Below, one piece after another: positions 559-13,258 of a stretch of 64,000 bases of DNA. Location: the NCBI RefSeq assembly GCF_024749285.1, contig NZ_CP087196.1, forward strand, positions 4,836,001 to 4,900,000, written 5' to 3'. The notes beneath the pieces were generated by a model. That model ran no database searches, had not been told where the DNA came from, and saw nothing but the letters and a program-made list of their open reading frames with translations. How positions within the stretch are numbered: position 1 is the first letter of the stretch; every line of letters starts with the position of its first letter. Both the position numbers and the translations under genes were made by a program. Source of the DNA: Pseudomonas sp. B21-015 (GTDB taxonomy: Bacteria; Pseudomonadota; Gammaproteobacteria; Pseudomonadales; Pseudomonadaceae).

Positions 559-602
559 AAGATAATCTATAAGTAAATTCGTTTATTTACTCCCTTCCTT
601 CA

Positions 603-665
603 TCACTCATAAACTTTCGCCGCACAAAATATTTTCGCAAAAATTTTTCAGCTTGGCGTAACCAC
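603..665 (-). pseudogene. Remnant of a second CdiI-type immunity gene
   Basis: Read on the minus strand, these 21 codons align without gaps to the last 21 codons of the immunity gene at 937-1185, with 8 mismatched bases in 63. Both end in the same A-K-V-Y-E-stop. About half of the differences are silent, so the copy probably diverged as a working gene before decaying. It now has TGA in place of the Trp codon and lacks everything upstream. No start codon or ribosome site remains. It is best read as a fossil orphan immunity cassette. Confidence 0.8.
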
Positions 666-677
666 TTCCCAAAAAGC

Positions 678-936: not shown

Positions 937-1185
937 TCACTCATAAACCTTTGCCGCACAAAGTATTTTCGCAAAAGTTTTCCAACTTGGTGTAAGCACC
1001 TCAGCATCACCCATATTTTTTGCATAAGAATCAATAACTCTTACCCATGCTTCCATGGCCTCTAAAAAATCCTCCAAAGTTTTATTCTCCCACTCCTGCG
1101 GTGAACGCAACAACTCCGCCTTCAACTCCCCTATAAAATCCGCAAGATGCTCCTTTGTTTGTACCTGATCAATATTTGAAGTCAT
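937..1185 (-). CDS. CdiI-type immunity protein (DUF7660-like)
   Basis: This 82-residue acidic cytoplasmic protein is encoded 12 bases after the cdiA stop. A TTG six bases further upstream is possible, but ATG at 1185 is better placed behind GAGGG and GGAA. The core pattern (E-W-E-N-K-T-L-E-x-F-L-E-A-M-x-A-W near residue 35, then P-S-W-K-x-F-A-K-I-L-x-A-A-K-V-Y-E at the C-terminus) matches, from memory, the DUF7660 family often found beside polymorphic toxins. Position immediately after a CdiA toxin end makes immunity to the CdiA C-terminal toxin the likely role. The assignment is by context and untested. A decayed paralogue lies at 603-665. Confidence 0.75.
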   Translation of the reverse strand: MTSNIDQVQTKEHLADFIGELKAELLRSPQEWENKTLEDFLEAMEAWVRVIDSYAKNMGDAEVLTPSWKTFAKILCAAKVYE

Positions 1186-1197
1186 TTCCAAAACCCT

Positions 1198-4100
1198 CTA
1201 TCTACATACGCCTCGAATACAAATTATCGAGCCATTATTAGGAGTAGTCATTTTCCAACCTTCCTTGGCAATTTCCGCAGGAGTCGCTGGAATTATTTTC
1301 ACTGGAACGCCCGCAGCAGAAGCAGCAAGTAGCCGCCGATTATCTAGACTATAGACCAATCCATCCTTCTCAAAAACACGAATAGGTGGAATATCGTTTG
1401 GAGATATGCGCCCAGACTTCAAGCCATCTATGGTCGAATACAGATCCCCTCCATCCGCAAATGCATTTTTAATGCTGTCCTGGGTAAATCGGATATCTTT
1501 TGGATTAGCCAGACCACTTAAATTATCTGGTAACTCAGAAGGCATTTTATAGAGACTAGTCCCCACCCCCTTGCTTGGACCACTATATACGGAGCCAGCC
1601 AAACCCCAAGCATTTAAAAGAGCCTCTACACCCCATATTACCCGCTCGGGACCTGTTGCAGTCTCCCCTGTTATAGGATTCGCTCCCCCAAAGGCCGTGT
1701 AGAGTTGGCACCCGACACCAACGATCCCCGCTCCGCCACAGCCCGCCATGAAAAGCTCGTTGGATACGCCATCAAGACGAGCCTTCAGTTCTGCGTCATG
1801 CAGTTTTTTTTCATTTTTCCCTATGATCGACTGCTCATAAGAAGCAGGTTGCAGGATCCACTCCTCGCCTTGATCCGTTGTGATCGACTTATCAGTGGCA
1901 ACGCAATAACCATTCGCCGACGTAACGCAGGAGACGATATCCCCAGGTTTGGTACTGGAAGCAAAAGCACGCGTGAAATCACTCTCCTCTACGATTCTTT
2001 CGTCCTTGAGCACGCTGGACCCCTTGGCGATAAGGTCAGCAATATCGCTGGATAGTCCTTCACAGTAACTTGATGTAACTCCGGTACATGCCGCCTCGTA
2101 CTCTCTCTGCGCTACACGAAGCGAGTATTGTTCAACCACGCTCAGATGATTGTTTTCTACAGCATTTTTTGATGTCCAGGCACCCAACGCCGCTCCTGCG
2201 GAACTCCCGGTAACCATAGCCCCAGCCAACCCACCAGCCAGCGTGGACAGAGCCGAAACCGTCTGTTTCTCCGACTCAGTCAGCTGATCACTGGTCTTGT
2301 CCGGATAAAGCTGTTTGGCAATCAGCTCACCAATAGTCGCTCCCGCAGCGCCGGCCAATGCGGAACCACCTTGCGCTTTCGCAAGCACGGCCCCCAGGAG
2401 GGCATGCGCCATCAAGTTGGCCGCGTCATCGCCCTCAGTCATTTGCTTCACGGCTTGAGCCAGATAAGGCGCAGATGCACCGGCCAAGGCACCGAGGATG
2501 TTGCCGCTCAACACTCCTTGCACGATTGCACTTACAGCCTTCGAGGCTTTTTGGAAGCTGCTGCCCATGCCGTAATCTTGCTGAACTTGCTGCGCAATTT
2601 GTTCAGGAGTCGGGTCGGCAATGCCTTTGTCGTTAAGCTTCTGCCTTGCAGCGTTGGATGCGTCGCTGTTTAGATCGTTGGCTTCGTTGATTTTTGCAGC
2701 GGCGATGGCGTCACCAATGCCCTGCGCCAATTGCATCGCGCTTTTTACAAGCTCGATGCGTTCGTCCATTGCGTGCTGGTCTGGCTTATCAAGCTGTTCA
2801 TTGGCATTGGCGGTGTCGCGATTCAGGCCAACCAGATCGTTCGCGCCTTCTGGGTTGCGAACGATGATGGTGCCTTCACTGACGGCGCTACGGGTTTTGC
2901 TTTGGTCTGAGTCATTAAGTGCAATGCCATACAAACCACCGACAGAGCCACTCCCGCCACCTGCACTGCTGAAACTGGCCGAAATGCCAGCGGACTGAGC
3001 CTCGATTTCACTGACGTTCTTGATGTCGCTGACAATAAGTCGGTCGGTGATCAGCAGGTTTTTATCCGGCGTCGCGTCACTGGCAATAACCCCACCGGTC
3101 AGGGTGGTGTTCTTACCAACATCAATGGTGTACCCGCCCGAGCCGGCAAACAGCCCGGTTTGGTCAGTTACGGCCCTGTACTCGCTGTTCATGTTGCCAG
3201 CGGCAAGATTTGCCGAGCCGCTAACTGGTACGCCATAGCAAAATGGAGGAATGCAAATGCTGGCGCCGAAACCACCGCTACCTTGCTTATTCTCCTGGAT
3301 CTCTACGTCTTGACGGGAAATGATGTTCAGGTTGCCGTCAATCAATGCATTAATGCTGTCGGCGTTGACTTGAGCGCCCGCAAGGGTGGTGTCGCCTCCA
3401 CTACGCAAGAGGAGCGAACCTGTGTTCAGTGTGCTGTTAACCTGCGTGATGGATCTGCCGGTCCCGGTGCCTTTCGCGCCCGACGCACCGAGATCCAGGG
3501 TAAAACCGTTTTGTTGCCCAATGTTGAAACTGGCACCGATGGCAGTTTTGTTGCTGGAATTGTTATTGGCCCATTCAGCAGTGTTTTGCGCGCTCTCCAG
3601 AATGATGTCGTTTTTCGCGATCAAGGATGTATCGGCGGCTTTTAAGGTACTCCCGATGACATGTATGTCGCCGGACTCACCCTCCGCGTTCCCCGTGGCG
3701 ATGATCGAAAGCGTGCCGCCAGCATTTACAGAACTCTGCCTCGCAGTCTGACTGTTGTACTCACTGGTGCTTTTGCTGTGAGTATTGGCAAGCTCAGTAC
3801 CAATTTTAATCAGCGACCCATTGTTGGAAGTACCGCCAGTCTTGTCTTTGAAACCAGTGCTGTTCGCCTCCGCATCACCCGCCATTCCGCCGAGGTTATA
3901 AGCCGCCAATGCAGCTTGTGCCAGCTTCACGGCTTTTAGCCGTGGGTCTTCAGCATCGTTCGCTGCCTTGACCGCCGTACGAATGGTGTTAACGGTGTCA
4001 ATGATCGCCCCGCCAATAACACGCCCTACTGCCAGGCTATTGGATTGATCGGCAGTGCTTTGACTTGAGCTTTCCATGCCCGCCGCAATAGTGACGTTAG

Positions 4101-7100
4101 TACCGCGCAAGCTCATGTTTTTGGTACTGATCAGATCGCTGGCGATAACGCTCAGATCCCCCCCGGCCACAAGGCTTACATTGCCGTTGCTGGAGCCAAT
4201 GGTGCTGCCGGTAAGGGTCGTTTGCGACATCGTGCCATTGTGGCGTTGGCCACTGATGGACAGATGTTGGTTGCCAGTGATGTCATCGACGCCAAGGTTG
4301 TTGGCCGTGAGTACACCGGTCAGGTCACGGTTCTTTTCCTTATGCGATTCGGTGCGGGTGTAGGTGTTTTCAGCGGCGGTGATGTTCAGGTCGCGGCCGG
4401 CGCGAACCGCCAAATCGTCAGTACTGACCAAGGCAGAGCCGGTAATTGCCACGTCTCGCTTTGCGCTCACTGCGATGGTGTTACCCGATATCAGGCTACC
4501 CACTGCAGTGGTTTGAGTCTCCGAGATGTTGTCTTGGACTTTGCTCGATTTCAAACCACCCCAGCTGCTTTTGCTTGAGCTGCTTTCAAAGCGTGCGCTG
4601 GTTGAATCGGTGACGGCAACGATCTTCACATCATTGCCAGCAGCCAGACCGACGCCACCTTTCTCAGAGATCACATTGCTCCCTTCGATCAGCAAATCGT
4701 TGCCGGCGGACAGTACAGTTTTACCTTGAGCAGTCACCGAACTCCCGACATTGGTCGTGCTGGAAATCTCCTGAAGCTGGCTCTTTTTTCCCGACGAGCT
4801 TTTCTTGGTCTTGCTGTAGAAGCTGTAGTCTTCGTCTTGTGCTGCTCCTACCAATAGATCACCGTCGGCAACTAGATACGCCTCTTCCCCGGCGCTCACC
4901 CGGCTGGCAATCAGGCCCAGATCTTTACCCGCTTTTAGCGAGACGGTACCGCCCGCATTAACAGTCGTAGACACCTGCCTGACATGGTCTTCCTGACTGG
5001 TGAACTTTTTGTTTTGGCTAAAGGAGTGCTGTTCATCCGCCGCCGAGGCCAACGTCAGGTCGCCAACGGCGCTCATGCTGACGTCACGCTTGGCATCGAT
5101 CTGACTGGCGATAACGGTGAGATCCCGACCAGCATTAACCTTCAGGTCCCGCCCCACATCCACGTCTGAACCATATTGGGTGATGGTTTGATCACGGTGT
5201 GTGCCCACCTCATGGCTGACGATCTGTTCGGCGGAAGCGATGTTGACGTCACGACCGGCGTTGATCGTGGTGTCGGCACCGCTTTTCAGCACGCCACCGG
5301 TGTTGTTGACGTCGCGCCCGGCGTTGAGGGTCAGCGCGTTGGCGGCTTCGATGCGGGCGGCGCTGTTGACGAAGTCCGTGCGCTCGTTGGTGTAACCCGT
5401 ACCACTTTCATGAGTGGTGACGGTCCGCTCGTTGATCACATCGCCCCGGGTGGCGGTCAGCGTCACATCCCGCCCGGCAATGATCCCCCCCGCCTTGTTG
5501 GTCAGGTTATTGGTGGCGAGCACCTTCAACTGGTCCCCCGCCTCCAGCAACCCACTGCTCACCAGATCATTCTTGGCCGTCGCATCCAGGTTCTGGCTGG
5601 CGCGCAGGGTGCCGGCGTTGTTCAGGTCTTTACCGGCGATCAGGGTCACGTCGCTGCCCTGGATCAGCGCGCCGTTGGCCGCGAGGCGGTTGTTGGCGTT
5701 GGCCAGGTACAGCACCGGCACCAGGACTTTTTCGCCATTCACTTCGTGCTCTTCGAGCCAGACGATGTCGTGGGTCAGGGCCGCGACTTGCTGTGACGTG
5801 AGGGTCACGCCGAGGCTCAGGTTGAGTTGGCTCTTGCTGGCGATGGCATTGTTCATCAGGTACTTGAACAAGCCTTCGTCGGTGGTCTGGCCATCGATGA
5901 AGCGTTGGCCGGTACGAGCGACCACGGCTTGCTGGATCAGGCGTTGTTCGTAGAGGCCATCGCCCAAACGCTTGGCGCTTTTATCGGGGTCGTAGCCGAG
6001 GCCAGACAGCAGGTAGTCCGAACTCATGAACTGTTTGAGGTCGGTGAGTACCGGGTTGGTTTCGATCAGGTATTTGTGCGGTTGGGATTTGCCGGCGTTG
6101 CTCGGCAGGCCTTTCACGCGGTTGAGGGTGATCGGCGGCGCATTGGTGGGCGAGGTGACGCTGGCGCCGGTGAGGGTCCAGCTTTGCGGGCCGGTGGCGG
6201 TCGGGGTGGTGCTGCCTTCCTGGCTCAGGCGGAACAGGCCGTTCTGGCTGGTGGGCAGGCTGAAGCCGGGAAGCGTGAGCGGGTTGACTTGTTGCTGGGC
6301 CAGATCGGGGGCGAGTTGCTGGTTGATCTGGATCGGTGTCGAGTAGCCGCTGCCCGCGCCCGTGTCGGTTTTGGTCCGACCCGCCGCCACATAGGCATAG
6401 AACGGGCGAACCACGCTGTTGTTGATGTTCTGGGTGGCATCGAGGGTGACGTTTCCACCCGCCTGGATGATGGCATCCAGAGACTCGCCGTTGATGACGC
6501 GGCTGCTGGTCGGCAGTGTTTGGCCCATCCAGGCCAGAAAGTTGCTCATGTCCTGTTCGACGGTGGCCGAAGGGGTCGGGTTGTTTCGTTGGGTGAAGAG
6601 GTCAGCCATTGCAATGGCCGAGGCGGTTTCGTTGACCCAGCTCACGAATCGTCGGGTGGTTTCGATGTCCTGCTCTTGCACACCTTTGTTGTTGATCGTC
6701 GAAGCATGGACAGCTAAATCGCCAGCAGCTGTCATGCTACTGCTGGTGTTGTTCACTTCTCCCGCATTAATCAACAGGTCCGCGCCACTGTTGATCGAGG
6801 CGGCTTCAGAATGAAGCGTGATCTTCAAGCGATCGGTTTCGGCAATTTCCCAAAGGCCGTTGATGCGACCACCGCCACGGCTGTCACATCCATACGAGAT
6901 CAGCGTGCACGACAACTGAGTGATGGTCGCGACACTTTTCTCATGCTCGGTGTACTGCAACACATCCATGACGTTGTTAACCGTCGTGGCGGCGATCGTC
7001 AGGTCGCCGGTGCTCTCAATCCCACCAGATCTGTTGTCCAGCAGATCAGCCTTGGTCCCTTTTTTATCCCTGGCAATGAGCGTGCTGCCCAGGCTGTAGA

Positions 7101-10100
7101 CCTGCCCGTAGTAGTTGGTGAAGCTGGGGCTCAGAAGCTGCATGTCTGCGCCACTGAAGATCAATCCGCGGTCGTTGCGTAATGCGTCTGTGGTCAACGT
7201 CAGGTTCTTGCCGGCGCCCACGGTGCCGGTGTTGTTGACGCTACCGGCCGTCAGGGTCAGGTCGGCAGCCGAGGTCAGGCGACCTGCGTTGCTGAGCTGT
7301 CCACCCACGGAAATGGTCGTGTTGCCGCCACCGGCGAGGCTCGATGCGGCATTGAGGTTCAGTTGTGCAGCGCTGAGGCCAAACGTTCCCAGGCTGCTGA
7401 CCCGGCCACTGCCCGAGTACGTGCCACCGAGCGTCAGACTCAGGCTGCCGTCGCTCGCGATCAGGCCATCGTTATTCCAGTTACCGCCGTTACCGGTCAG
7501 TGTGCTGGCGGCCAGCAGTTGACCAGCGGCCGTCTGGTTGAGGCTGTTGATGTTGACGGTCAGGCGATCGGCCTGGATCACGCTGCTGTTGGTCCAGCTG
7601 GCGGCGGTCAGGGTCAGGCCACCACGGGTGACGAAGTTGCCACCGGCGCTGCCCAGTTGGCCGGTGGCGATGTCGAAGAGGCCGGTGCCGACGTGCAGCA
7701 CGTTGCCGCCGACGTTCAGCAAACTGCCGGCAGTGAGGTTCAGGTTGGTGTTGGCGGATTCCACGGTGCCATTGCGGTTGTCGAACAGGCCGCCGAGGGT
7801 GAACGCGGTTTTACCATTGTCGCCCAGTGCGCGAAGTTGGCCGGTCTGGTTGTCGAGGCTGGCGGCGGAGATGGTCAGGGTGCTTTCGCTTTCGATGATG
7901 CCCTGGCGGTTGTTCAATGCACCGCGCAGGCTCAGGTCGATTTGTTGCCCGCCGATCTGCCCGTCGTTGTCGCCGCTATTGTCGAAGTCTTTAGCCGTGA
8001 CGCTGACCAACCCCTTGGCGTAGAGGCCGCCATTGCGGTTGTCGAAGTTGCCGTTGGTGCCGGTGTCGACGATGGCGTCACCGGTTTGCGCGGTGATCCG
8101 CCCGCCGTAGTTGTCGATGCCGGCCAGTGCCTTGAGGTTCAGGCTCTGGGCCTGAATGATCCCGCCCCGACGGTTGTTGTTCAGGTCATAGCCGTTGCGC
8201 AATACACCCGTGATGTGGCTGCTGAAGGCGCCTTGCAGGCTGGAGAGCACACCGCCACGGCTGTCGAGGCTGGCGGCGGTGATGTCGAGGTTGCCGCCCT
8301 TGGCGACGATGCGCCCGCTCTGGTTATCGATGGCGCCGCTGGTTTTTACCGTCAGGTCGCCCTCGCTTTGCAGGGTGCCCTTGGCGTTGTCGAGGCTGGC
8401 GGCGTTGAGCGTCAGGCCGGCGTTGTTGCTGAAGACCTGACCGCCCGCGCTGTTCTGCACAAAGCCACTGGCCGTGAGCGTCAGCAGATCGTTGGCCACG
8501 ACAATGCCGCCATTGCGGTTATCGAGTCCGCCGGTCAACAGGCTCAGCAAACCCAGACTGGCCAGTTGGCCGCCCTGGTTGTTGATCTGCACCGCGCGCT
8601 GAATGACCAGCGGGCCGTTGCTCGCCAGTTTGCCGTTGGTATTGGTCAGGGTGCCGAGCAGATCGAGGGTGACCGCGCCAGTGCCGGCCAGGGTACCGGT
8701 GCTGTTGTTCAGGTCGGTGCCGGTGAAGCTGATGTCCTGCTGGGCGTTGATGGTTGCGTTGGTGTTGTCGAGCGCTTTGGCCCGGATATCCAGAGCGGCG
8801 CCACTGTCGATCAAACCACCTTGGGCGTTATTCAGTGTTCCGGCGATGACGAAGGTTTGCGCACCGACACTGGAGAGAATGCCGTTGTCGCTGTTGTCGA
8901 GGCTGGCCGCCGTGACCTTCAACGTGCCGTTACTGACCAGAGCGCCGGCATTGCTGTTACGCACGGCGCCGGTAAGGTCCACCAGCACGTCACCGTCGCG
9001 GCTCGACAAGGTGCCTAGATTACGGTTGTCGAGGCTGCCGCCCAAAAGGCTCAGGCTTTGCCAACCGGAAATCAGACCCTTGAGGTTAGTGGTGGTATCG
9101 GCGGTGAGATCCAGTTGCTGACGGCTGATGAGCTTGCCGCCGCTGTTGTCCAGGTTGCGTGCAGTCAGTGCATAGCTTTGGCTGCTGGAGATTTCACCAC
9201 TCTGGTTGTTCAAATCCCGCAGGTTGCGGATGCTCAGTTGCCCGGTGGTGGTGATCAGGCCGTTGGCGTTGTTCAGGTCGCCCATGGCGCCGCTGAAGTC
9301 GATGACAATGGCGCTGCCAAGCAACGAGCCGCCGTTCTGGTTGTTCAAACTCGCGGTGTTGATGGTCAGGTTGTCGGTGGCGTTGATCAGGCCTTGGTCC
9401 TGATTATCGAGTTGGCCGGTAACCCGAAGGTCGAGGCCGGTGCGACTGGTGAGGGTGCCGCCGTTGTTGTTCAGGCTACCGGCCTGTACATCGACGCTTG
9501 CCGCCGCGATCAGGCCTTTGATGTTGGTCAGCACCTGCTGTATGCGTAGGGTCACTGCCTGATTGCCGAGCAGTTTGCCGTTGCTGTTGTCGAGGCTGTC
9601 GGCCGCCAGCGTGAACGCCTGCGCACTGGAAATTTCGCCGTTGCGGTTGTCCACCTGTGCGAGGTTTTTCAGCACCAGCACCGGGGCGTTGATCAAACCG
9701 TTCTGGTTGTTCAACTCGCCGTGATTCAGGTCCAGGGTCAGCGACGTGCCACTGGTGAGTTGCCCGCCATCGTGTTGGTCGAGGCCGCTGACACTGGCCG
9801 TCAGGGCCTTGTTGCTGGCAATCCGGCCCTTGTTGCTGTTATCGACCGTGCCGGCAGTGAGGCTCAGGCTGTCGAGGCTGGTCAGTTTGCCGCCCTGGTT
9901 GTTCACCGCACCCGTGGCGGTGATGCTCAAGGCCTGACCGGCGTTCACCAGTCCCGCCACGTTATCCAGAGTGGCCATGCGCAGCGTCGCGCTGGCCAGG
10001 CTCGAGAGTTCGCCATTGCGATTGTTCAGGTGGCCAAGGGTGGCGCCGAGATGACCGGTACTGGTGATCAGACCGTTGCCGTTAAGCACCTGACTGGCCG

Positions 10101-11454
10101 TGAGATTGAGGTTGCCGCTGCTCAACACCCGGCCCTTGTTCTGGTTGTCCAGGGTCCCGGCGGTGATGTTGGCGGTTTGCGCGGCGCTCAACGTGCCGCC
10201 CTGGTTGTTCAGGGTCTGGCTGGTGTTGACTGTCAGGTTGCGGCTGGCCACCACGCTCTTGCCGACGTTGTTGAGATTCTGCGCACTCAGGCTCACATCG
10301 CCGCTGGTGTTGCGGCTGGTGTCGGCGTTGACTCCGGCTTCGATGATGCCGTTGTTGGTCAGTACACCGCCGGCGCTCAGGGTGATGCTGTCCCGGGCGG
10401 CGAGCGTTTGCTGGTTGGTCAGGTTGCCTTGGGTTTGCACGTTGACAGCGGTGCCGGCATAGACCGGGCCGCGAGCATCGAGGCTGACGGCTTTAACGTT
10501 CACTGCGCCCGTGGCCGACGCCTGCGCGAGGCTGAGATGTCCGTTGGCATCGAGCTGGATGTCACCGCCACTGGCGGCCAGGTTACCGTCGAGTTTCACC
10601 CCGACCCCGGCTTCGGTGCCCACCAGTTTGATCGCCCCGGCGTACATGCCGCCCAGGGCCGAGGAGTCGATGGCCAGCCCCGGTTTACCGCTGCCGTCAT
10701 CGGCGCGGGCGGTGGCGTTGAGGCTGTCGGCGTTGACGTCGTTGCGGCCGGCGACGATGGTCAGGTTTTTCGCCTGAATCTCGGCGTTGATCTTCGCGCT
10801 GCGAGTGATGATTTCGAAGCGGTCGACGTTGTCGGCGTTCAGCCCGGCGCCGTCGATGGTGACGCTGCCCTGATCGACCTGGAAGCGATCGAGCCGGCCG
10901 TTGTCCAGCACCGGTTTGCCGGTGGTGAGGGTCACACGCGGGGTGTTGATGAAGCCGCAGCCGTTGCAGCTGATACCGTAGGGGTTCGCCACAATGACCC
11001 GCGCCGACTGCCCCGCCACTTCGGTATAACCGCGCAGCTGACTCGGGCTGCCGCCGATTACTTCGTTGAGGATGGTTTGTGCGGCGACCCGGTTGGTCAG
11101 GTTGGGGTTGCCGACGATGATCCCGCCCAGTTGCGTCGCGCCGGTCTGGTTGGCGACGTTGTTGAGGATCACGCCCTGGGTGCCGACGTTGTAATCGTGA
11201 AACTGGTTATGCGACAGCCCTGTGCCGTTGGGCGTGGCGATGTTGACGATCTGCACGCCATTGCCGGCCTGCCCGAGGCTGGTGCCCGGCGAGGCCACCA
11301 CAATTCCGTCCGCCTGGGCCCACATCGGCTGCCAGAACATGACGTTGGCCAACAGGAACGCCAACCCGCGCTTGGGCATGCCCCAGAAGTACTCACGGTT
11401 ATTGATGGCAGCAGAAGGCTGACCAGCCAGAAGGGCCAGTTGACGAACGTCCAT
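1198..11454 (-). CDS. cdiA: CdiA-type contact-dependent toxin / filamentous haemagglutinin (TpsA)
   Basis: This 3418-residue exoprotein is exported by the CdiB/TpsB partner upstream. It starts with an extended ESPR-type signal region (residues 1-48, with P-K-R-G-L-A and ending A-Q-A). The TPS secretion domain follows (to about 300) with N-P-N-L at 116-119 and N-P-Y-G at 157-160. A long stretch of roughly 20-residue beta-helix repeats (about 330-1480), a non-repetitive middle (about 1500-1850) and a second haemagglutinin-repeat block come next. The pretoxin carries VENN at 3099-3102 (bases 2149-2160) and a PT-TG-like G-A-N-P-I-T-G-E segment near 3260. The last 100 residues resemble the ParB/sulfiredoxin fold (P-P-I-R-V...D-G-L-V-Y-S-L-D-N-R-R at 3356-3374), so the toxin may be a nuclease or nucleotidyl enzyme. 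The 3' end is clearly more AT-rich than the rest, as expected for an exchanged toxin module. Confidence 0.92.
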   Translation of the reverse strand: MDVRQLALLAGQPSAAINNREYFWGMPKRGLAFLLANVMFWQPMWAQADGIVVASPGTSLGQAGNGVQIVNIATPNGTGLSHNQFHDYNVGTQGVILNNVANQTGATQLGGIIVGNPNLTNRVAAQTILNEVIGGSPSQLRGYTEVAGQSARVIVANPYGISCNGCGFINTPRVTLTTGKPVLDNGRLDRFQVDQGSVTIDGAGLNADNVDRFEIITRSAKINAEIQAKNLTIVAGRNDVNADSLNATARADDGSGKPGLAIDSSALGGMYAGAIKLVGTEAGVGVKLDGNLAASGGDIQLDANGHLSLAQASATGAVNVKAVSLDARGPVYAGTAVNVQTQGNLTNQQTLAARDSITLSAGGVLTNNGIIEAGVNADTSRNTSGDVSLSAQNLNNVGKSVVASRNLTVNTSQTLNNQGGTLSAAQTANITAGTLDNQNKGRVLSSGNLNLTASQVLNGNGLITSTGHLGATLGHLNNRNGELSSLASATLRMATLDNVAGLVNAGQALSITATGAVNNQGGKLTSLDSLSLTAGTVDNSNKGRIASNKALTASVSGLDQHDGGQLTSGTSLTLDLNHGELNNQNGLINAPVLVLKNLAQVDNRNGEISSAQAFTLAADSLDNSNGKLLGNQAVTLRIQQVLTNIKGLIAAASVDVQAGSLNNNGGTLTSRTGLDLRVTGQLDNQDQGLINATDNLTINTASLNNQNGGSLLGSAIVIDFSGAMGDLNNANGLITTTGQLSIRNLRDLNNQSGEISSSQSYALTARNLDNSGGKLISRQQLDLTADTTTNLKGLISGWQSLSLLGGSLDNRNLGTLSSRDGDVLVDLTGAVRNSNAGALVSNGTLKVTAASLDNSDNGILSSVGAQTFVIAGTLNNAQGGLIDSGAALDIRAKALDNTNATINAQQDISFTGTDLNNSTGTLAGTGAVTLDLLGTLTNTNGKLASNGPLVIQRAVQINNQGGQLASLGLLSLLTGGLDNRNGGIVVANDLLTLTASGFVQNSAGGQVFSNNAGLTLNAASLDNAKGTLQSEGDLTVKTSGAIDNQSGRIVAKGGNLDITAASLDSRGGVLSSLQGAFSSHITGVLRNGYDLNNNRRGGIIQAQSLNLKALAGIDNYGGRITAQTGDAIVDTGTNGNFDNRNGGLYAKGLVSVTAKDFDNSGDNDGQIGGQQIDLSLRGALNNRQGIIESESTLTISAASLDNQTGQLRALGDNGKTAFTLGGLFDNRNGTVESANTNLNLTAGSLLNVGGNVLHVGTGLFDIATGQLGSAGGNFVTRGGLTLTAASWTNSSVIQADRLTVNINSLNQTAAGQLLAASTLTGNGGNWNNDGLIASDGSLSLTLGGTYSGSGRVSSLGTFGLSAAQLNLNAASSLAGGGNTTISVGGQLSNAGRLTSAADLTLTAGSVNNTGTVGAGKNLTLTTDALRNDRGLIFSGADMQLLSPSFTNYYGQVYSLGSTLIARDKKGTKADLLDNRSGGIESTGDLTIAATTVNNVMDVLQYTEHEKSVATITQLSCTLISYGCDSRGGGRINGLWEIAETDRLKITLHSEAASINSGADLLINAGEVNNTSSSMTAAGDLAVHASTINNKGVQEQDIETTRRFVSWVNETASAIAMADLFTQRNNPTPSATVEQDMSNFLAWMGQTLPTSSRVINGESLDAIIQAGGNVTLDATQNINNSVVRPFYAYVAAGRTKTDTGAGSGYSTPIQINQQLAPDLAQQQVNPLTLPGFSLPTSQNGLFRLSQEGSTTPTATGPQSWTLTGASVTSPTNAPPITLNRVKGLPSNAGKSQPHKYLIETNPVLTDLKQFMSSDYLLSGLGYDPDKSAKRLGDGLYEQRLIQQAVVARTGQRFIDGQTTDEGLFKYLMNNAIASKSQLNLSLGVTLTSQQVAALTHDIVWLEEHEVNGEKVLVPVLYLANANNRLAANGALIQGSDVTLIAGKDLNNAGTLRASQNLDATAKNDLVSSGLLEAGDQLKVLATNNLTNKAGGIIAGRDVTLTATRGDVINERTVTTHESGTGYTNERTDFVNSAARIEAANALTLNAGRDVNNTGGVLKSGADTTINAGRDVNIASAEQIVSHEVGTHRDQTITQYGSDVDVGRDLKVNAGRDLTVIASQIDAKRDVSMSAVGDLTLASAADEQHSFSQNKKFTSQEDHVRQVSTTVNAGGTVSLKAGKDLGLIASRVSAGEEAYLVADGDLLVGAAQDEDYSFYSKTKKSSSGKKSQLQEISSTTNVGSSVTAQGKTVLSAGNDLLIEGSNVISEKGGVGLAAGNDVKIVAVTDSTSARFESSSSKSSWGGLKSSKVQDNISETQTTAVGSLISGNTIAVSAKRDVAITGSALVSTDDLAVRAGRDLNITAAENTYTRTESHKEKNRDLTGVLTANNLGVDDITGNQHLSISGQRHNGTMSQTTLTGSTIGSSNGNVSLVAGGDLSVIASDLISTKNMSLRGTNVTIAAGMESSSQSTADQSNSLAVGRVIGGAIIDTVNTIRTAVKAANDAEDPRLKAVKLAQAALAAYNLGGMAGDAEANSTGFKDKTGGTSNNGSLIKIGTELANTHSKSTSEYNSQTARQSSVNAGGTLSIIATGNAEGESGDIHVIGSTLKAADTSLIAKNDIILESAQNTAEWANNNSSNKTAIGASFNIGQQNGFTLDLGASGAKGTGTGRSITQVNSTLNTGSLLLRSGGDTTLAGAQVNADSINALIDGNLNIISRQDVEIQENKQGSGGFGASICIPPFCYGVPVSGSANLAAGNMNSEYRAVTDQTGLFAGSGGYTIDVGKNTTLTGGVIASDATPDKNLLITDRLIVSDIKNVSEIEAQSAGISASFSSAGGGSGSVGGLYGIALNDSDQSKTRSAVSEGTIIVRNPEGANDLVGLNRDTANANEQLDKPDQHAMDERIELVKSAMQLAQGIGDAIAAAKINEANDLNSDASNAARQKLNDKGIADPTPEQIAQQVQQDYGMGSSFQKASKAVSAIVQGVLSGNILGALAGASAPYLAQAVKQMTEGDDAANLMAHALLGAVLAKAQGGSALAGAAGATIGELIAKQLYPDKTSDQLTESEKQTVSALSTLAGGLAGAMVTGSSAGAALGAWTSKNAVENNHLSVVEQYSLRVAQREYEAACTGVTSSYCEGLSSDIADLIAKGSSVLKDERIVEESDFTRAFASSTKPGDIVSCVTSANGYCVATDKSITTDQGEEWILQPASYEQSIIGKNEKKLHDAELKARLDGVSNELFMAGCGGAGIVGVGCQLYTAFGGANPITGETATGPERVIWGVEALLNAWGLAGSVYSGPSKGVGTSLYKMPSELPDNLSGLANPKDIRFTQDSIKNAFADGGDLYSTIDGLKSGRISPNDIPPIRVFEKDGLVYSLDNRRLLAASAAGVPVKIIPATPAEIAKEGWKMTTPNNGSIICIRGVCR

Positions 11455-11479: not shown

Positions 11480-13186
11480 TTAGAGGAAGAAATCCACGCG
11501 GAAATAGATCGGCGCTTCGCGCTCGGTCAGCACATCAGGGCGTTCCAGGGAATGGGCAAAGGTCACGCTGGCCGCCACATGCTGACCCCGGGCGAACAGC
11601 TCCAAGGAGTTGCTGGACATGCGCCCGTGCTGATCGCCGTTGTACCGGTCGCCACGAATCACGCCCTGGTCGTAACCGAGGCTGGTGCCGTACTCGGCGA
11701 ACACCGGGCGCAGCCATTCCAGGGTGATCGGATGGCTCCAGCGCAGGTCGTTGCGCCAGTAGCCGCCGCTGTCGCCGGATAAGGACTGGTCTTTGTAACC
11801 CCGGATCGACGACTGCCCGCCAAGGCTGGTGCGCTGCGGGCTGAACAGCACATCTTCGCTGCGCTGGCCGGTCATCAGGCTGCTGAACGTGAAGGACTCG
11901 CCCCACAGTTTGAACGGCTGCAAGTAACTCGCGGTGGCGGTGTATTTGCGGTAGCGCGCATCCGGCTCGCCGGGGCCTGGATCACCGTTGCCCTGCGCGT
12001 CCAGGATGCCGATGCCTTCCTGCATGCCCAGGTCAAGGTTGACGAACGCACTGCCAATCCGCCGACCGTGGTTGATGCCGAACTGCGCTTCACTGATGCG
12101 GTTGCTGCTCAGCCTGAGTTTGCTGTCTTCGATGAAGTTGTTGGTGCGCAAGTACGAGAGACCGGTGCTGAGGGAGGTCTTGCTCAGGGCGTCGCGATGG
12201 ATCACCCGCTCGGCGCGTAGTTGATGGTTTTCGCTGTCGCCGGTCTGCTTGAAATTAAAACCGTTGGCCTGAGCTTGCGCGCGGTACTCGCTCTGGCTGT
12301 AGGTGTAACTGAAGTTCCACCAGCCCCACGGCAGGTTGTAATTGAGCATGGCGTTGTTGGAGGTGTGCTGGTGGTCGGTCATCGCATCGTGACCGCCGCG
12401 CAGCATCAACTGATCGGCCAGGCCCAGCGGGCTGTCCCAATCAAACGTCGTGCCCCACTGCTGCTCACCGGTGCTGCGCTGGCCGTCATTACTGCGGGAC
12501 AACCCGGCACGCCAAGGCTTCTGCGGCATGTTCTTGACCAACACTTCGCTGCCACCGACGTTCTTGCCCGGGGACAACTCCATCTGCGCCTGATTCGACG
12601 GCAAGCGGTTCAGCTGATCCACCATCTGCTCGATTTCCCGCAGATTGACCAGCTCACCGCTCTTGCCGGGAAACGCCATCCCCAATTCGCGGTCCGACAG
12701 CTTGCTGCCCTCCGCCCCCTTCAACCCTTCCAGCCGGCCCTCGACCACCAGCACCTTCAGATGCCCGCCGGACAAATCCTGCTGCGGCAAGTAGGCACGA
12801 CTGGTGACCAGGCCTTTCTCGATGTAGTGATCGGTGATGACTTTCAGCAGCTCGTTGAGCTGCGTGACACCCAGGCACTGGCCGATATAAGGCTTGAGCA
12901 GACGATTTTTCTCGCTGTCCGAGAGACTGTCGGCGCCTTTGAGTTCGATGTCCTTGATCGGGAAACAACGGGCGTCGGCCGGAGCCGTCGGTTGCACGGG
13001 TTTGGCTGCCTTGCCGGGTAATTCCTTGAGTTCCTCGAGACGCCGACGTTGCTCTTCGAGCAAGCGATCCTGACGTTCGCGGATCAGATCGGTTTCACCG
13101 GGGGTGGGGGCGGCGTGAGCAAGATTCAGCGGAGAAAGGCACAGCAAAGCCAGGCACAACCTCGCCACGAGGGCGGGTGGGTACAT
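11480..13186 (-). CDS. cdiB: CdiB / TpsB outer-membrane transporter (FhaC/ShlB family)
   Basis: This outer-membrane beta-barrel exports CdiA by two-partner secretion. I start it at ATG 13186 (568 aa), which follows GAGGG by six bases. The upstream frame start at 13219 lacks a ribosome site. The N-terminus is a signal peptide ending L-A-H-A. An Arg/Glu-rich helix of the FhaC H1 type follows (R-E-R-Q-D-R-L-L-E-E-Q-R-R-R-L). A POTRA-2-type domain begins at C-F-P-I-K-D-I-E-L-K-G, and a ShlB-type barrel ends in a terminal Phe-rich strand (Y-F-R-V-D-F-F-L). The length is normal for the family. It is 25 bases upstream of cdiA and certainly cotranscribed. Confidence 0.92.
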   Translation of the reverse strand: MYPPALVARLCLALLCLSPLNLAHAAPTPGETDLIRERQDRLLEEQRRRLEELKELPGKAAKPVQPTAPADARCFPIKDIELKGADSLSDSEKNRLLKPYIGQCLGVTQLNELLKVITDHYIEKGLVTSRAYLPQQDLSGGHLKVLVVEGRLEGLKGAEGSKLSDRELGMAFPGKSGELVNLREIEQMVDQLNRLPSNQAQMELSPGKNVGGSEVLVKNMPQKPWRAGLSRSNDGQRSTGEQQWGTTFDWDSPLGLADQLMLRGGHDAMTDHQHTSNNAMLNYNLPWGWWNFSYTYSQSEYRAQAQANGFNFKQTGDSENHQLRAERVIHRDALSKTSLSTGLSYLRTNNFIEDSKLRLSSNRISEAQFGINHGRRIGSAFVNLDLGMQEGIGILDAQGNGDPGPGEPDARYRKYTATASYLQPFKLWGESFTFSSLMTGQRSEDVLFSPQRTSLGGQSSIRGYKDQSLSGDSGGYWRNDLRWSHPITLEWLRPVFAEYGTSLGYDQGVIRGDRYNGDQHGRMSSNSLELFARGQHVAASVTFAHSLERPDVLTEREAPIYFRVDFFL

Positions 13187-13217
13187 GTTCGATCCCTCGA
13201 ATGGAGAGTGATGGCAC

Positions 13218-13258
13218 AATAGTGGCGCGATATTAGATGGCCACTATTTTGGCGTCAA
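13218..13258 (-). promoter_or_regulatory. cdiBA promoter with overlapping palindromic operator
   Basis: On the minus strand, TTGACG (13258-13253), a 17-base spacer and TAATAT (13235-13230) make a near-consensus sigma-70 promoter about 45 bases before the cdiB start. A perfect inverted repeat, AATAGTGGC (13218-13226) and GCCACTATT (13240-13248), brackets the -10 box with 13 bases between the arms. This is the geometry of a repressor operator, or of a hairpin at the transcript's 5' end. The regulator is unknown. Confidence 0.65.

Follow-up and report, generated by a model that had tools for sequence, protein, structure and literature searches.

The last ~110 residues of a 3418-residue CdiA protein of Pseudomonas sp. 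B21-015 are predicted to form a toxin domain with the ParB/sulfiredoxin (Srx) fold, and the gene directly behind it encodes a member of DUF7660 (PF24693), a Pfam family that carries no assigned function. Both lie in the 64,000-nucleotide stretch analysed here (the window; positions 4,836,001 to 4,900,000 of contig NZ_CP087196.1), in a 6.59-Mb genome that is a single contig. Taking module, fold and pairing jointly, the locus is very probably a contact-dependent inhibition (CDI) module, cdiB-cdiA-cdiI, which combines a ParB/Srx-fold toxin with a DUF7660 protein. CDI operons deliver a toxin into a touching cell, and an immunity protein gives protection. The features that carry the argument, in window coordinates, are:

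1198-11454, minus strand: CdiA, two-partner-secretion exoprotein, 3418 amino acids (aa), one open frame
1201-1566, minus strand: swapped toxin cassette, residues 3297-3418 (~120 aa), delimited by an identity drop against CdiA homologues
1201-1530, minus strand: predicted ParB/Srx-fold toxin domain (Tox-ParBL1-like), residues 3309-3418, from AlphaFold2 and neighbours in the PDB
1480-1482, minus strand: Q3325, present in all 27 aligned toxins
1333-1344, minus strand: DNRR, residues 3371-3374, at a helix start, probable equivalent of the ParB Box II GxxR by model and alignment
937-1185, minus strand: CdiI, DUF7660 protein, 82 aa, a predicted helical bundle (helices in the fused model)

The end of CdiA is predicted to adopt a ParB/sulfiredoxin fold

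AlphaFold2 gave a confident model of the last 110 residues of CdiA (predicted local distance difference test (pLDDT) 91.6, predicted template modelling score (pTM) 0.85). Foldseek and VIA-align both place ParB, Noc and Srx at the top, and nearly all of the 34 entries in the structural-alignment list are ParB, Noc, KorB, Srx, SbnI or SerK. A preliminary description made from the letters of the DNA had proposed a ParB/Srx-like toxin end, and this reading holds because the model of the domain alone is confident and its structural matches are almost wholly of that fold. The residues quoted there are present (PPIRV...DGLVYSLDNRRLLAA...AGVPV) and correctly numbered. Pfam and NCBIfam scans returned no meaningful match for the toxin domain itself, Pfam adding one chance-level row, and none of 16 toxin domains (set A1) matched ParB_N (PF02195) or any other ParB family in Pfam at E values up to 10.

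We aligned 27 toxins, a chosen set made up of 9 of the 42 non-self homologues, the window's own toxin and those of 17 loci. All 27 share Q3325, D3371, N3372, R3374, A3377 and A3381, and 26 of them also have T3404. R3374 does not vary at all; position 3373 is R or T, the T being confined to one clade. In the ParB/Srx GxxR box the arginine would correspond to R3374, which lies at a helix start in the model, and the glycine is replaced by D. Locus L022 was excluded from the alignment although its DNTR motif fits, and so was L032, a weak match (E 3.2e-5 over 49 positions) whose inclusion would break the D3371 column. The L032 match lies around 1501 within a 2642-residue frame and reads LNTR where DNRR is expected.

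With the CTPase domain of ParB, Noc and KorB the toxin shares the fold, the position of Box II and a helix and loop ahead of the PIRV strand; unlike them it has D for G in Box II, lacks a helix-turn-helix (HTH) or dimer domain, and shows no Box III by eye. The corresponding sulfiredoxin motif is GCHR, whereas the toxin has DNRR, with no cysteine at that place, and stands in a toxin context. SerK and SbnI, free serine kinases, are both larger proteins and 5 to 14% identical to it. P motifs such as Box II touch phosphates (PMC12704722).

The motifs of the domain fit Tox-ParBL1, a predicted ParB-fold toxin with [ST] near the N terminus and an [NT][RT][RT] motif in Zhang et al. 2012 (PMC3482391); the likeness is judged from these published motifs. 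All 27 toxins read N, [RT], R at this place. [FY]-[TS]-Q is likewise found in 27 of 27 and an S or T two positions after the Q in 24 of 27 (by eye), and either of these two positions could be the [ST] that was intended. Tox-ParBL1 domains of proteobacteria and actinobacteria also sit on hemagglutinin and Rhs scaffolds, but the immunities given for them in the paper are Imm-SUKH and Imm44 and not DUF7660. Since several immunities are listed there per toxin family, a DUF7660 partner does not exclude membership (PMC3482391). Computation assigns the last ~110 residues of CdiA to a predicted ParB/Srx-fold domain of the Tox-ParBL1 type.

The domain is part of an exchanged cassette

An ungapped comparison, in 20-residue blocks, was made between the window's CdiA and 11 of 24 other homologous proteins. 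In all 11, identity is 65-95% in the block that starts 60 residues before DNRR, 50-70% in the one at 40 residues and 70-95% in the one at 20 residues, and every block 100 to 300 residues before it is just 0-25% identical; the collapse begins more than 80 residues before DNRR, i.e. upstream of about residue 3291. Because identity is high near DNRR and 0-25% further upstream, the last ~120 residues are an exchanged unit. Homologous domains are found at the ends of Rhs proteins in Streptomyces and Paenibacillus and, in Thalassospira, at the end of a hemagglutinin-type protein.

The cassette travels with a DUF7660 gene

The neighbour's assignment as DUF7660-like proved right: CdiI matches PF24693 over its full length with 91.6 bits against a curated cut-off of 27. 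Its gene starts with ATG; a TTG upstream at 1191 would give 84 aa.

We define the close clade of toxins by a short hairpin, DNRR and a K-x(4)-N-x-G tail. It comprises 14 loci with a toxin or its remnant (the window, L006-L013, L015, L023, L024, L025 and L038), and in 13 of them, the window included, DUF7660 is the next gene. The neighbour was confirmed by Pfam directly in nine loci and, for L008, L009, L012 and L015, through genomes G071, G262, G010 and G345. The paired loci span three phyla, with Pseudomonas (to which L012, L013 and L015 are assigned), Achromobacter, Sinorhizobium, Streptomyces and Haliovirga among them. Loci with broken toxin frames (L008, L015) or truncated toxins (L009, L010 and L011, the last a match of 21 residues) were used for adjacency only. 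Duplicates were dropped (L014, L016 and L017 come from contigs already represented by L008, L009 and L010, and the L027 contig holds L033 as a further copy), as were the window's own rows (L001, L004, L005, L026) and L002 and L003, with E above 0.5.

More distant ParB-like toxins (L018-L021, L027-L031) have other genes downstream, not DUF7660, and a Pfam scan of three of these genes, two of them partial, gave no match. Given the adjacency in 13 of 14 loci over three phyla, and the different neighbours of the distant toxins, toxin and DUF7660 form a conserved, mobile toxin-immunity module; by computation, the cassette is shown to travel with the DUF7660 gene that immediately follows it.

Among 398 Pseudomonas genomes a close-clade toxin occurs in 7, any toxin match in 12 and DUF7660 in 44. 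Every genome with a close-clade toxin, that of the window among them, also has DUF7660, an overlap with a chance of ~1.3e-7, or 1.2e-6 leaving out the own genome (hand calculation). Toxin and immunity distances over eight pairs correlate with r 0.935 (0 of 5000 permutations), a figure partly owed to common descent.

Several loci vary the arrangement. In Pseudomonas sp. Q11 two tandem DUF7660 copies follow one toxin (L006, 1441-1692 and 1796-2035). Behind the pair in L013, a fragment at 2118-2393 (DDIRFSQNSVSFNK...) is similar to the distant ParB-like toxins of the DNTR clade, and the locus looks like a CDI orphan array. A sister toxin clade (L027, L028, L033) has a 17-residue insert in the hairpin ahead of DNRR and a different gene of 121-132 aa downstream.

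What the toxin may do

In the mechanism that we propose, CdiB would export CdiA, whose C-terminal (CT) part would be delivered into a touching neighbour cell. There the toxin may bind a nucleoside triphosphate (NTP), perhaps ATP, whose phosphates would be held by the start of the DNRR helix in the manner of sulfiredoxin and ParB Box II; the toxin might then pass a phosphoryl or nucleotidyl group on to some target in the cell. In kin, the helical-bundle DUF7660 protein would bind the toxin and protect the cell. We know of no CDI precedent for phosphoryl or nucleotidyl transfer on a ParB/Srx fold. NTP-dependent transfer of this kind is the chemistry towards which we lean, tentatively and nearly tied with a nuclease, because the pocket of the fold binds NTPs (CTP, ATP or GTP; PMC12704722), Srx and the serine kinases move phosphate, and the phosphate arginine is kept.

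It is possible instead, at a slightly lower estimate, that the pocket grips a nucleic-acid backbone and the toxin cuts DNA or RNA, with DUF7660 blocking the cleft. Osa and a plant sulfiredoxin have been reported as nucleases on this fold (PMC4619093), and Zhang et al. favoured such an activity for Tox-ParBL1 (PMC3482391). The invariant residues of the 27 toxins include a single acidic one, D3371, and no histidine, which argues against a metal-dependent nuclease and leaves room for a metal-free one.

An improbable alternative is an NTPase that depletes nucleotides, or a CTPase-like switch that upsets chromosome segregation by mimicking ParB. The best fold matches are indeed ParB and Noc, several with CDP or a CTP analogue bound. 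Against this, only a ParB_N-like core is present: the modelled chain stops ~30 residues past the last core strand and so has no room for HTH and dimer domains. Nor was Box III noticed by eye, no search aimed at it having been made.

DUF7660 with and without the toxin

Three observations weigh against DUF7660 as the toxin's antidote. An interface between the toxin and its 82-residue neighbour, proposed in the preliminary description as a check, did not materialise: the fused toxin-immunity model (pLDDT 84.6) predicts both domains well and not their mutual placement, giving no confident interface (pTM 0.52). L038 is the exception among the close-clade loci, with a downstream gene that by eye is a different one, 149 codons long. 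And DUF7660 is often present without a ParB-fold toxin, being a wider family. We examined 30 of the 44 listed Pseudomonas matches as loci; 7 adjoin the toxin and 23 have no such toxin alongside, no toxin match within 1.5 kb of these 23 being better than E 0.33. Unpaired members in L072, L075 and L077 score 82 to 87 bits, equal to paired ones. No toxin was found in four other proteobacterial and six plasmid DUF7660 loci examined; among 13 plasmid records with DUF7660, 3 have the toxin, these six were examined, and L069 and H12 to H14 were left out. The only two motif search matches, in L039 and L041, are on the opposite strand and were taken as chance.

Other loci show what may be former partners. 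In L079 and L080, around 1501, DUF7660 remnants lie behind a CdiA end with another toxin and antidote gene (by eye), and the window holds a relic of its own:

601-668, minus strand: relic of another DUF7660 gene (its 3' end), 68 nucleotides, 87% identical to 935-1002

The relic, with a weak PF24693 match inside it (E 0.81), lies 334 bases downstream of the present gene and may be an earlier or duplicated immunity gene. Like the remnants in L079 and L080, it has the appearance of a displaced CDI antidote.

That DUF7660 is no antidote, just an unrelated or regulatory passenger, would suit its many toxin-free loci, the fused model and L038, and is nonetheless very improbable given that DUF7660 adjoins the toxin in 13 of 14 close-clade loci, spread over three phyla and on several scaffolds, in the place usual for CDI immunity genes, and given the displaced remnants in CdiA loci. 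Most likely the DUF7660 neighbour makes the matching antidote to the ParB-fold toxin.

Some surroundings of the family deserve mention. In L038 (1627-3303), on an IMG/VR contig, the toxin end directly follows a 418-codon gene resembling an IS110-type transposase (by eye). The gene upstream of DUF7660 in L075 resembles SMI1/KNR4 (by eye), and on a Hymenobacter plasmid (L040, 1471-1728) a DUF7660-like gene sits beside an annotated SMI1/KNR4 gene, as in a poly-immunity locus. Of the 18 Pseudomonas DUF7660 proteins in L081-L098, 16 end in FLYCGKIYE or AGKFYE; they form a separate group with no ParB-like toxin nearby.

Layout of the operon

The order cdiB, cdiA, small cdiI on one strand is that of a CDI module. 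Domains listed for CdiA are PF13332, PF05860, PF05594 and PF04829. The remaining features are:

11480-13219, minus strand: CdiB outer-membrane transporter, 579 aa (ShlB 316.7 bits, POTRA_2 93.8 bits, measured on 11483-13186)
2149-2160, minus strand: VENN motif, read directly in the CdiA translation
1585-1758, minus strand: Pre-toxin TG domain PF14449 (26.8 bits against a cut-off of 23.5)

VENN we take to be the mark ahead of the variable CT of CdiA.

Discussion

In a literature search that lay outside preprints and most subscription papers, DUF7660 was found in no paper, and no experiment on a ParB-fold CDI, CdiA, Rhs, MafB or polymorphic toxin was found. Judged by titles and listings, ParBL1 has its toxin meaning in the 2012 paper only, out of three that contain the term, and the words toxin, Rhs, polymorphic and hemagglutinin are absent from the main text of a 2025 survey of the ParB/Srx fold.

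We would speculate further, as an unlikely proposal in its full form, that the toxin is an NTP-dependent phosphoryl- or nucleotidyl-transferase acting on an essential target, and that DUF7660 is a large family of immunity proteins with a helical-bundle fold that has so far gone unrecognised; among its chromosomal members that lack a toxin, some would then regulate ParB/Srx-fold proteins or protect against them.

For DUF7660, a Pfam family without a function, the pairing supplies a testable one, and the toxin domain predicted in 2012 now has a confident model. Known roles of the ParB/Srx fold are those of NTP switches, of kinases and of sulfinic-acid repair, and a toxin built on it would show this pocket turned into a weapon.
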